NCBI GenBank assembly: GCA_035624455.1
Contig: DASPRM010000086.1
Location: 1-50,062, forward strand
Length of the DNA: 50,062 nucleotides
Source: Terriglobales bacterium
GTDB lineage: Bacteria; Acidobacteriota; Terriglobia; Terriglobales; Acidobacteriaceae
Direction of reading: 5' to 3'
The translations under genes were made by a program, and so were the position numbers. This document shows, in pieces, positions 22,552 to 40,511 of this stretch. The notes below the pieces were generated by a model. The model was not told the origin of the DNA, did not search any database, and saw only the letters and a list, made by a program, of their open reading frames with translations. How positions within the stretch are numbered: the first letter of the stretch is position 1; each line of letters begins with the position of its first letter.

Positions 22552-22634
22552 GCTACCGCTTTTCCTAACAGGCCCGGTCCGGTTTCCCCGAATCCCGATT
22601 GGTTCCCCCAGTGCATCCGATTGGAGGTGCCTCC

Positions 22635-23249
22635 ATGAGAAAGTGTTATTGCTCATCGTGCACTGTCATCCGGGCCATGGTGTTGGTGGCGATTGTCGTC
22701 GCCGCTACCTTTTCGGGGCGAGCGCAAGATGACGTTTACCAACTCAGCTTTTACGCGAATGCCAATAGCCAGATCAGCGATCAGACGATAAACATCCTGA
22801 ATCCGGGCTGGCAGGGCGCACCCCTCAGCGCTGATCATGGCACGGTTTGCGCGGATATCTACGTCTTCGACGCAAATCAAGAACTTGAGACCTGCTGTGC
22901 GTGTCGCATCAGTGCAAACGGAATCCTGACCCTCTCACTGCGCTTGAATCTACTGCCTGCAGCCGCTTTTCCGGGTGGGAGAAGACCCGACACGGGAGTG
23001 ATCAAGATTGTGTCCGACGCTCTTGCCAACTGCAATGCCACTCACCCTAATCCGGTTCCACAGCTGCGCACTTCGATGACGCACCTGGAACTTGCACCTC
23101 CGCTTAACCTCTTTCGGATCGCGAACTCCGAAAGCGATGTTCCATTCGCGGATAGTTTTCTTTCGCAAGAAGAATTGGTTTCCTTGGCGCAGCGATGCCA
23201 CAAGGCGGCCGGCACGAAGAGAGTGTGCCTCTGCCCGGCAAGCAGTTGA
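22635..23249 (+). CDS. Secreted Cys-rich protein, tandem paralogue 1
   Basis: A 204-residue exported protein of unknown function. The start at 22635 is supported by GGAGG (22623-22627). A hydrophobic segment (about 13-26) ending near GRAQ looks like a signal peptide. The mature part opens DDVYQLSFY, then VCADIYVFDANQELETCCACRI (C72, C87, C88, C90), ISANGILTLSL, GVIKIVSD and a further Cys (C133), ending with Cys in RVCLCP. The next gene repeats the same order of motifs. I recognise the general ECCxC...NGLxTLS pattern as recurring in Acidobacteria secreted proteins. The cysteines suggest disulphides outside the cell. Confidence 0.75.
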   Translation: MRKCYCSSCTVIRAMVLVAIVVAATFSGRAQDDVYQLSFYANANSQISDQTINILNPGWQGAPLSADHGTVCADIYVFDANQELETCCACRISANGILTLSLRLNLLPAAAFPGGRRPDTGVIKIVSDALANCNATHPNPVPQLRTSMTHLELAPPLNLFRIANSESDVPFADSFLSQEELVSLAQRCHKAAGTKRVCLCPASS

Positions 23250-23303
23250 AGGCAGGGCGGCCGATCAGTCTCCAGGGCGCGATTCTCTCATTGAGGTGTG
23301 AAG

Positions 23304-23927
23304 ATGGGCGACAGGAATACGAAATCCAGTTCATGCCCGATTCAGCGCTGGCTTTGGATTGTGGCCGTGGCCCTAGCCGTGGCAAGTTGCGTGCCGTGTC
23401 TCGCGCAAGTATCAGATGTATACCTACTCACTTACTACAACCAGAATTATTCCAATCTTGGCGTCTTTTCACAGTTCAGTTCCGACCAGACAGTTCGGAT
23501 TGTCAACCCGGGTGTTCAGCGGGAGATCTGCGCCGACCTCTTCGTATTCGACAATCAACAGGAAATGCTGGAATGCTGTGCCTGCCGAATCAGCGCCAAT
23601 GGCCTCCTTACGCTCTCCCTACAGTACAACCTGTTACAGGCGCCGCTTGTTCCTGGTTCTGGTTTCTTTCTGGGCCTTCTCAACTCTGGAGTCATTAAGA
23701 TTGTTTCTGACCACCCTCAAAACTGCGACCCAACTTCACCGGTTCCAGTACGGAACCTGCGGGCCTGGATGAGTCATGTGCAGGGCACCACAATCTCGGA
23801 CCAGGCTTTTGACTCGAGTGTCCTGATGCAAGGCGAACTCCTTTATCTGGGGCAGACGTGCGGATTCATTGAGAACATAGGCGTGCCTGTCGGTGTGGGC
23901 GTTTGTACGTGCCCGACCGGGGCTTAG
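23304..23927 (+). CDS. Secreted Cys-rich protein, tandem paralogue 2
   Basis: A 207-residue paralogue of the preceding protein. ATG 23304 is preferred over GTG 23298 because GAGG (23293-23296) is correctly spaced only for the ATG. Signal segment about 16-35. Shared core in the same order: DVYLLTYY, SDQTVRIVNPG, ICADLFVFDNQQEM (C76), ECCACRISANGLLTLSL (C91, C92, C94), GVIKIVSD, NC (C141), and a C-terminal VCTCP. The 54-base gap suggests one transcript with paralogue 1. Divergence between the copies outside the core is large, so duplication is old or the copies differ in role. Function unknown. Confidence 0.75.
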   Translation: MGDRNTKSSSCPIQRWLWIVAVALAVASCVPCLAQVSDVYLLTYYNQNYSNLGVFSQFSSDQTVRIVNPGVQREICADLFVFDNQQEMLECCACRISANGLLTLSLQYNLLQAPLVPGSGFFLGLLNSGVIKIVSDHPQNCDPTSPVPVRNLRAWMSHVQGTTISDQAFDSSVLMQGELLYLGQTCGFIENIGVPVGVGVCTCPTGA

Positions 23928-27061: not shown

Positions 27062-27205
27062 ATAGCAGTCAGCAATCAGCATTCAGCAGTCAGCTAAGAG
27101 TCTCGAATTTGCGGCAGTACCGACATATTGGAATAAGAAACCGCAAGATCGTTCGACTCGGACGGGGTGTGGTTTACCCCATCCTGCTCAAAATGACAGC
27201 TCAAG
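27062..27205. repeat. Repeat-rich gap: AGCAGTCAGC words and a diverged structured repeat
   Basis: 27062-27098 is a run of AGCAGTCAGC, CAATCAGCATTCAGC and similar words. 27139-27158 is AACCGCAAGATCGTTCGACT, one base different from the word at 13716, followed by GGGGT...ACCCC (27164-27180) and TGACAGC. No gene. Probably inert intergenic repeats; the hairpin may act as a terminator for mutT. Confidence 0.55.
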
Positions 27206-29308: not shown

Positions 29309-29435
29309 GTTGTCTCCCGAGGTCGTGAAAATGACAGCCCAAACGGAGAACGGGAATTCTATCGCGAGCCGCGACTCAAAAAAACAGGCACGGAACGAAG
29401 TCCGTGCCTGATTCAGGGAGGCAACGCGGAAACTT

Positions 29436-29996
29436 CTACCTGTGATTCCGGTCGTTGTGCAAATCGCGCCGGTCAGCCCGGATGTCTTTCTTGTCGTGGT
29501 GGACGTCGCGATAGTCGTGGCGCAGGTCGGACCGATCATGATGCACGTCGGCGTAGTCTTTGTGCAGGTCCTTGCGATCGCTGTGAATGTCACGCTGGTC
29601 CTGATGGATGTCGGTACGATCATGATTCAGATCGCGGCGATCGTGGTGAAGGTCAGCTTTATCGCGGGCGACGTCGTCTTTGTCGTACTTTTCATCGTGC
29701 GCCAGCTTTCTGTCATCGCGGTAGATGTCATTGCGGTCGCGATAAGCGTCTCGCCGATCGCGGTTGACGTCGGTCTGATCTTTTGATAGATCGCGGCGGT
29801 CGTGGTTGATGTCGCGATAGTCCTGATGCAGATCGCGACGGTCATTGTGGATGTCGTTGTAATCGCGATGCAGGTCGCGCTTGTCCTGGTGCAGATCCCT
29901 GGCATCGTTTTGTTGGTCGGTGGTTTGTGCGATAGCGCCTACGCCGAGGGCGAGCACTCCCGCCAACAGTGAAGACACGAACAGATGTCGCTTCAT
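29436..29996 (-). CDS. Exported Asp/Arg/His heptad-repeat protein
   Basis: A 186-residue protein. ATG 29996 has GGAGGAG upstream and gives a signal peptide (MKRHLFVSSLLAGVLALGVGAIAQ). The mature chain is almost wholly a seven-residue repeat of the form x-D-(L/I/V)-(H/N/R)-x-D-(R/Y/K): examples RDLHQDK, RDLHRDY, NDIHNDR, RDLSKDQ. I count about 10 repeats, an 11-residue interruption (KYDKDDVARDK), then about 10 more. Asp falls on positions 2 and 6 of nearly every heptad; there is no Cys and little hydrophobic residue beyond the L/I/V at position 3. The DNA shows a 21-base periodicity. A metal- or surface-polymer-binding role is conceivable but unsupported. Function unknown. Confidence 0.75.
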   Translation of the reverse strand: MKRHLFVSSLLAGVLALGVGAIAQTTDQQNDARDLHQDKRDLHRDYNDIHNDRRDLHQDYRDINHDRRDLSKDQTDVNRDRRDAYRDRNDIYRDDRKLAHDEKYDKDDVARDKADLHHDRRDLNHDRTDIHQDQRDIHSDRKDLHKDYADVHHDRSDLRHDYRDVHHDKKDIRADRRDLHNDRNHR

Positions 29997-30203
29997 ACGG
30001 TTCTCCTCCAGATCCGGATGGGCTAATCGGATTATTGAAGTGGCTGCCAATAGGAACCCTGAAGCTCGAGAAAGTCGCGGTGTGGGATAAACGCCGAAGA
30101 ATTCCTAGCAGTGACCAGTGCCAGTTTTTGTCAACAATACAGACTTGCAAGTAGGCGGTAACGGAGATTCCTGTGCTGCGGCCTATAATCGATAGATTAA
30201 GCC

Positions 30204-39498: not shown

Positions 39499-39665
39499 AG
39501 CGATCAGCCCTCAGCACTCACCAATCAGTAACCCCTACAAACCCGATCCCTCGACTCCGCGCTCGTGGCCTGCAGAAAACACGTTCGGGATGACAATGAA
39601 TTTGCTGATAGCCGAGTGCTGACTACTAAATGCTGATTGCTGACAGCTAACTGCTGATTGCTCTA
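39499..39665. repeat. Repeat-rich gap of GCTGATTGCTGA-type words
   Basis: Runs of CTGATTGCTGACAGC, AACTGCTGATTGCT and CAGCACTCACCAATCAG words surround a diverged structured repeat (about 39540-39597: GATCCCTCGACTCCGCGCTCG ... CGGGATGACAATG). Similar words also occur near 10101-10128, 13818-13855, 27062-27098 and 40450-40490. Non-coding; no gene. Confidence 0.6.
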
Positions 39666-40366: not shown

Positions 40367-40511
40367 CTGTGGCATCGGCGCCGTAAGGGCCGCCGGCGGC
40401 GAAGGATTTGTGATTTTCGCGGGGGTCGCCAGTTGCTGAGCGCGGGGTTTACTAATCGCTAATTGCTAGTTGCCAACTGCTAATTGCTGTTTTCATCGAA
40501 AGGATTCCATC

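Follow-up and report, generated by a model that had tools for sequence, protein, structure and literature searches.

A predicted charge-matched helical hairpin in an exported heptad-repeat protein family of Acidobacteriota

Group 3 LEA proteins are built on an 11-residue repeat, and a single alpha-helix (SAH) domain is one uninterrupted charged helix. The helical hairpins of SMC, EnvC and YscO proteins are accompanied by other parts of the molecule or by hydrophobic cores, and LTxxQ is the motif of the CpxP/Spy group, whose cradle has a basic concave face. Spy itself is described as a small helical periplasmic chaperone that makes antiparallel coiled-coil contacts and captures its clients electrostatically, with four helices per chain in a cradle-shaped dimer (PMC8144458). 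In the charge-zipper model of TatA, helices are joined by ladders of complementary charges; according to one report, in vivo work gives this zipper no support (PMC5601993).

In this study, we analysed a 50,062-nucleotide stretch of DNA from a soil Terriglobales bacterium of the family Acidobacteriaceae (contig DASPRM010000086.1; the window), which encodes an exported heptad-repeat protein. We consider it highly probable that the protein is exported and that two helices pair within it in antiparallel fashion. On balance, we favour the fuller reading of an exported, unanchored antiparallel alpha-hairpin whose charge-matched arms could shield or chaperone envelope components under stress; the stress-shield function is put forward tentatively. 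Like Spy, the window protein is small, exported and, by prediction, all-helical with antiparallel contacts; unlike Spy, its family carries heptads in two helices and varies in length. In contrast to SMC, EnvC and YscO, the hairpin would be the whole mature protein, and half of its core would be Arg. The predicted ladder of complementary charges recalls the TatA model, although TatA is a membrane protein. By analogy, we propose that such a rod could work like Spy or a LEA protein while belonging to neither group. Among the titles and abstract openings listed by topic searches of a largely open-access literature, no paper on the family appeared, and in that literature the motif strings occurred only in four physics or engineering papers.

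The coding sequence and its heptads

The gene, referred to below as the hairpin gene, is a complete coding sequence of 186 amino acids plus a stop on the reverse strand (29436 to 29996; ATG at 29996, stop at 29436) and is single-copy in its genome. A Shine-Dalgarno sequence, GGAGGAG, lies 6 nt 5' of the ATG (30003 to 30009, same strand), and an intrinsic terminator with a 10-bp stem, a 6-nt loop and 7 T (29385 to 29410, same strand) closes the gene; no sigma-70-like promoter was found between 29330 and 30250 (0, versus 0.5 in shuffled sequence). The protein begins with MKRHLFVSSLLAGVLALGVGAIA followed by Q, a putative signal peptide of 23 residues that ends in AIA before Q24 (29928 to 29996, reverse strand), placed both by visual inspection and with a simple rule and ending alike in homologues. 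The export proposed in the earlier note holds. Ten heptads follow, then KYDKDDVARDK (residues 103 to 113), then ten further heptads.

These units, some 20 in all, are rich in Asp, Arg and His. When block 1 is framed from R33, nearly all of its units read x-D-[LIV]-x-x-D-x, which confirms the rule of Asp at positions 2 and 6 and an aliphatic residue at position 3; printed from N30, block 1 has Asp at its two places in 10/10 and 9/10 units, and block 2 has Asp in 10/10 at both. The division into two blocks of about ten repeats parted by KYDKDDVARDK was likewise evident from the sequence. Counts of Asp-Asp pairs are highest at lags 7, 14 and 21 (41, 38 and 35 pairs); when the mature chain was shuffled 20,000 times, lag 7 averaged 12.2 pairs and never exceeded 23. 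The count at lag 11 is 22, and the 11-residue repeat of group 3 LEA proteins was rejected on these peaks. There is no Cys, and residues 27 to 182 contain 37 K+R against 47 D+E, bearing out the extreme charge described beforehand.

The suggestion that the protein belongs to no recognised family also stands: no Pfam model reached its cut-off for the window protein, 11 aligned relatives or 8 further ones, and no NCBIfam model did so for the window protein. Matches in Pfam, NCBIfam and PDB sequences were sub-cut-off coiled-coil look-alikes (the latter two searched with the window protein only). For the window protein the strongest Pfam hit was DUF3450 (PF11932; E 3e-5), whose 23.7 bits fall short of the 32.6-bit cut-off; it matched 1/12 members. 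SMC (TIGR02168) scored 22.2 bits against a cut-off of 567 with the window protein. Metal_resist (PF13801) appeared for one of the 8 relatives (14.5 bits, E 0.04, cut-off 29.2) and was not listed for the window protein. As for CpxP/Spy (LTXXQ), the string LT..Q occurs in 1/87 proteins, and the window protein has no LTXXQ Pfam match up to E 10.

Distribution and genomic setting of the family

Matches were found, with the genome of origin included, in 14/61 genomes of the closest set (E <= 0.001), 69/398 genomes of the bacterial family (E <= 1e-6) and 24/396 genomes of the phylum (E <= 1e-6; some of these spurious). The closest and family sets included a single genome of this genus. Occurrence is patchy: 33/79 sampled genera of the bacterial family and 21/211 of the phylum sample (a few spurious in the latter) were positive. 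The earlier note had called for homologues combining a signal peptide with heptads in related genomes, and many were found; judged on sequence, the window protein belongs to a real exported family. Searched with the window protein, genome_contigs gave no match; searched with a relative, it gave 7 loci, of which six carry acidobacterial titles (several of these from genomes already counted in the other searches) and one is titled Thermoflavifilum, a possible contaminant. Neither the window protein nor one relative matched any plasmid, and the window protein matched no phage, in BLAST searches whose low-complexity masking could hide some.

A sample of 87 proteins, the reading frames from fetched loci and a subset of the family and phylum matches, was assembled at E below 1e-12 in a first batch and up to 1e-8 in a second. 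Three phylum matches that by eye carry unrelated repeats (L108, L110 and L111) were left out, as were five duplicates and, by rule, further same-ended copies; since picking was score-based, irregular relatives such as L112 are under-sampled. Arms were counted in 76 of the 87, nine being dropped because the hinge rule failed (among them L114, L115 and L122, in which a hinge is visible, and L127, which has one Cys in an arm) and two for want of an Asp pattern. Under our own simple rule for signal-peptide ends, 74 of these 76 proteins have a signal peptide, and Gln follows the cut in 44 of the 74, as called by this heuristic, which favours Q/E/D.

Several variants were observed beside the main family. 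Genomes of two genera encode a minimal version, some 85 residues long, with arms of about 18 to 36 where measured and the family hinge (L129, L131, L134-L139, L141, L142). Genomes of one genus encode, directly downstream of a short hairpin gene, an additional relative that is shorter and less regular (L092, L117, L120), and three of these genomes also have a long hairpin gene elsewhere. Eight less charged, apparently exported proteins in which the hinge differs (GA-x-S-x-Q or YGKKS-like; L013, L112, L128, L130, L133, L143, L144, L146) may form a sister group.

In the window, the hairpin gene is flanked downstream by an alpha/beta hydrolase gene (PF20091) and upstream, divergently, by a gene for a SpoIIE-type phosphatase. 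The phosphatase occurs in 15/61 genomes, its own included (E <= 1e-60); a hairpin gene lies within 1.5 kb of it in only two of the 15, its own genome and G015 (arms 43/43), and a PF20091 hydrolase lies within that distance in none of the 14 other genomes, two of the stretches being cut by contig ends. The hydrolase had been said to share export with its neighbour, and a hydrophobic leader is present if GTG 29308, a start chosen by hand, is the start; a partnership, however, is not borne out, with a terminator between the genes and the hydrolase absent at the other SpoIIE loci. Because the terminator closes the gene and its neighbours differ between genomes, the hairpin gene seems to be its own transcription unit, which sits in different places and suggests no partner. 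At 13 of 44 loci examined, a CutA1 gene (one representative matching PF03091) is convergent with the hairpin gene; since all 13 share this arrangement, these hairpin genes are probably orthologous.

Other features of the window were noted in passing. Intergenic arrays of 7-bp, TGCTGAT-like units lie at 27064 to 27094 and 39602 to 39662 and also elsewhere in the genome, where TGCTGATTGCTGA occurs 32 times as against 0 for the reversed control. Heptanucleotide arrays occur in some cyanobacteria, and the TGCTGAT-like arrays recall them. A further array of 7-bp period, with the unit CTAATTG, lies at 40452 to 40488 between two cyclophilin-type isomerase genes (PF00160). Two adjacent open reading frames at 22599 to 23927 encode Cys-containing proteins, each about 210 residues long and apparently exported, that are similar by eye and have no Pfam match; they are possible tandem duplicates.

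Hinge, matched arms and predicted structure

The 11-residue interruption described in the earlier note is present, but it is best read as the conserved hinge of a two-helix hairpin, given the helix break in the AlphaFold2 model and the conserved columns of the relatives. In 59 hinge-aligned proteins the consensus is D-L-R-x-G-[DN]-x-A-x-A-x-x-E-R-x-[DE]-I, running from D(-4) and L(-3) through G(0), [DN](+1) and A(+5) to I(+12); column 0 is Gly in 53 and column +1 is Asp or Asn in 58. A tight helix-turn-helix requires a Gly stop followed by an Asn or Asp helix cap. The window protein has a variant one residue shorter, HDEKY-DKDDVARDKADL (aligned by eye), in which Tyr-Asp replaces the usual Gly-Asp/Asn. 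Its predicted hinge turn comprises residues 102 to 105 (EKYD; 29682 to 29693) and separates a putative N-terminal helical arm (residues 27 to 101; 29694 to 29918) from a C-terminal one (residues 106 to 185; 29442 to 29681), each of about ten heptads and all on the reverse strand, as delimited by AlphaFold2, arm measurement and heptad count.

Arm length was taken from the hinge to the first or last patterned acidic residue, with the hinge placed by profile alone in 59 proteins and by hand-written patterns in 17, the window protein among them. Across the 76 proteins the arms range from 15 to 95 residues and their lengths are closely correlated (r = 0.926; 0.936 for the 59 profile-placed hinges). 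They are equal in 32, within 4 residues in 55 and within 7 in 64, and more than 7 apart in 12; those of the window protein measure 77/78. On average the two arms of a protein differ by 4.2 residues; when arms are reassigned at random across proteins, this mean rises to 20.2 and in 20,000 permutations is never lower than 14.0, a comparison uncorrected for kinship. Among the 13 CutA1-convergent loci, arms of 43-92 and 36-95 residues still correlate (r = 0.94). In 24 disjoint nearest-neighbour pairs (r = 0.74), 17 differ: both arms changed in the same direction in 6, one arm only in 10, and the two in opposite directions in 1. Because 10 of these 17 pairs changed a single arm, matching as read from these sequences returns over longer times and not at each step, and single arms do change. 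The best reading is that selection acts on the paired arms and not on a fixed length.

A register for the two arms was indicated by L062 and L089, the only proteins of the 76 with Cys in the patterned region, each having exactly two, at -3 and +5 around the hinge; this pair suggests a register in which residue -x sits across from x+2. Of the 1016 charged facing pairs that result at offset 2, 924 combine opposite signs, the best result among the 15 offsets tried, although opposite charges also exceed 79% at offsets -5, 9, -2 and 5. Individually, 42 of 59 proteins score best at offset 2 (offsets -1 to 5) and 17 at another; the window protein has 12 opposite and 5 like pairs at offset 2 and 15 and 0 at offset 3. 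At offset 2, an aliphatic residue faces Arg or Lys in 222/320 cases from the N-arm and 218/320 from the C-arm. We infer a hairpin in which each layer combines an aliphatic side chain with that of an Arg, and in which Asp rows face Arg rows.

AlphaFold2 was run on alignments of 8 sequences each (pTM 0.59 for the window protein, 0.56 for a 120-residue relative). It predicted helices at residues 15-101 and 106-185 of the window protein (mean pLDDT 84.9; 112/186 residues at 90 or above), and at 31-71 and 75-119 of the relative, on a like plan. The earlier note had left the choice between helix and polyelectrolyte to structure prediction; these models show two helices with a break at the hinge. Because Foldseek superposed the window model on the EnvC hairpin (8tzl_E) with a TM of 0.73 over 185 columns, the helices probably lie side by side; no Foldseek match reached E <= 0.001, and the rows listed were generic coiled coils. 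The model resembles in gross shape EnvC 8tzl_E (Z 11.7, rmsd 3.6, 174 aligned), the SMC arm 5xg2 (Z 12.3, rmsd 2.9, 172 aligned) and YscO 4mh6 (Z 11.8, rmsd 2.5, 154 aligned), but the matches given by VIA are likewise generic coiled coils, and the aligner cautions that long helices often reach Z values of this size; the lack of a closer family among the Foldseek and VIA matches carries no weight. An SAH domain was rejected on the conserved hinge and the two predicted helices.

Alternative readings and a possible role

Equal arms and a -3/+5 Cys offset would also be expected of an arm-swapped antiparallel dimer centred on the hinge, in which N-arm and C-arm pair between two extended chains. We regard this as unlikely: in most hinges Gly, a helix stop, precedes Asp/Asn, a helix start; the aliphatic stripe changes phase from one side of the hinge to the other (-7 to +12); and both AlphaFold2 models have a helix break at this point.

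It is quite improbable that the protein is an intrinsically disordered polyampholyte, of LEA-like or polyelectrolyte type, with an Asp periodicity that merely records how the repeats arose, even though 84 of the 156 repeat-region residues are charged and each heptad holds a single aliphatic residue. The 21-bp units are 47% identical on average and their Asp codons are mixed (GAC 30, GAT 16), and TRF found only a 2.2-copy 42-bp array within the gene; with such identity and codon use, the repeats are old at the DNA level and do not stem from recent expansion. The Asp positions have nevertheless been kept in repeats down to 47% identity, a conserved hinge with matched arms requires a defined fold, and the AlphaFold2 helices are confident.

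The window protein is the most His-rich of the 76 (11.5%), and the CutA1 gene at 13 of 44 loci, through divalent ion tolerance, would fit a metal-binding (His/Asp) surface or periplasmic buffer protein. This reading is very unlikely: the family's His median is 4.3%, and none of 65 columns displayed has His in more than about a quarter of proteins; CutA1, moreover, lies on the opposite strand and is absent among the neighbours of the window gene. His richness is a peculiarity of the window member. Of the earlier alternatives, an extended charged coil or an assembly, metal- or polymer-binding protein, the extreme charge holds, the extended coil gives way to the more specific reading of a hinged hairpin, and metal binding is no family trait.

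A role as a tether or spacer of the envelope, comparable to Braun lipoprotein and secured by a lipid anchor or by a C-terminal Lys linked to peptidoglycan, is scarcely credible: a Gly-Lys C-terminus occurs in 17/87 proteins and the signal peptide of L094 contains a lipobox-like VSGC, but L094 is alone in this among the 87, further pattern matches in L087, L103 and L128 precede the likely start, the window protein has no lipobox and ends in NHR, and length varies several-fold, unlike that of a spacer.

Under the preferred reading of an antiparallel hairpin, the chain would leave the cytoplasm by Sec export without an anchor, presumably for the periplasm, and the hairpin would make up the whole mature protein. 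It would fold into one long antiparallel hairpin with arms of about 77 residues, or about 11.6 nm at 0.15 nm per residue. The Gly-Asp/Asn hinge, Tyr-Asp in the window protein, would stop helix 1 and begin helix 2. The aliphatic residue of each heptad would sit opposite mostly Arg or Lys of the partner arm and Asp rows opposite Arg rows, so that the arms zip through a thin aliphatic stripe and a ladder of complementary charges. The resulting rod, soluble, tolerant of length and covered in charge, could shield or chaperone envelope components under stress. Because the protein lacks an anchor and a conserved His column, varies in length and occurs patchily, a protective or chaperone-like rod fits better than a metal store or spacer.

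A paired rod may still expose an Asp face and an Arg face, and rods could then zip together. It can be envisioned, as an outside chance, that hairpins interlock sideways and build, within the envelope of these acidobacteria, a mesh that pH and salt could switch and for which the length of the rods would not matter. If so, they would represent a structural class of exported protein held mainly by salt bridges.

The envelope biology of the Acidobacteriota is poorly known, and these results would add an exported family to it. The family offers a natural series of putative hairpins, of about 18 to 95 residues per arm and with nearly the same unit throughout. Such a series makes it possible to test the reach of charge pairing, aided by a thin aliphatic stripe, in stabilising long antiparallel coiled coils, and to ask by what route arms stay matched in evolution when heptads often come and go one arm at a time.
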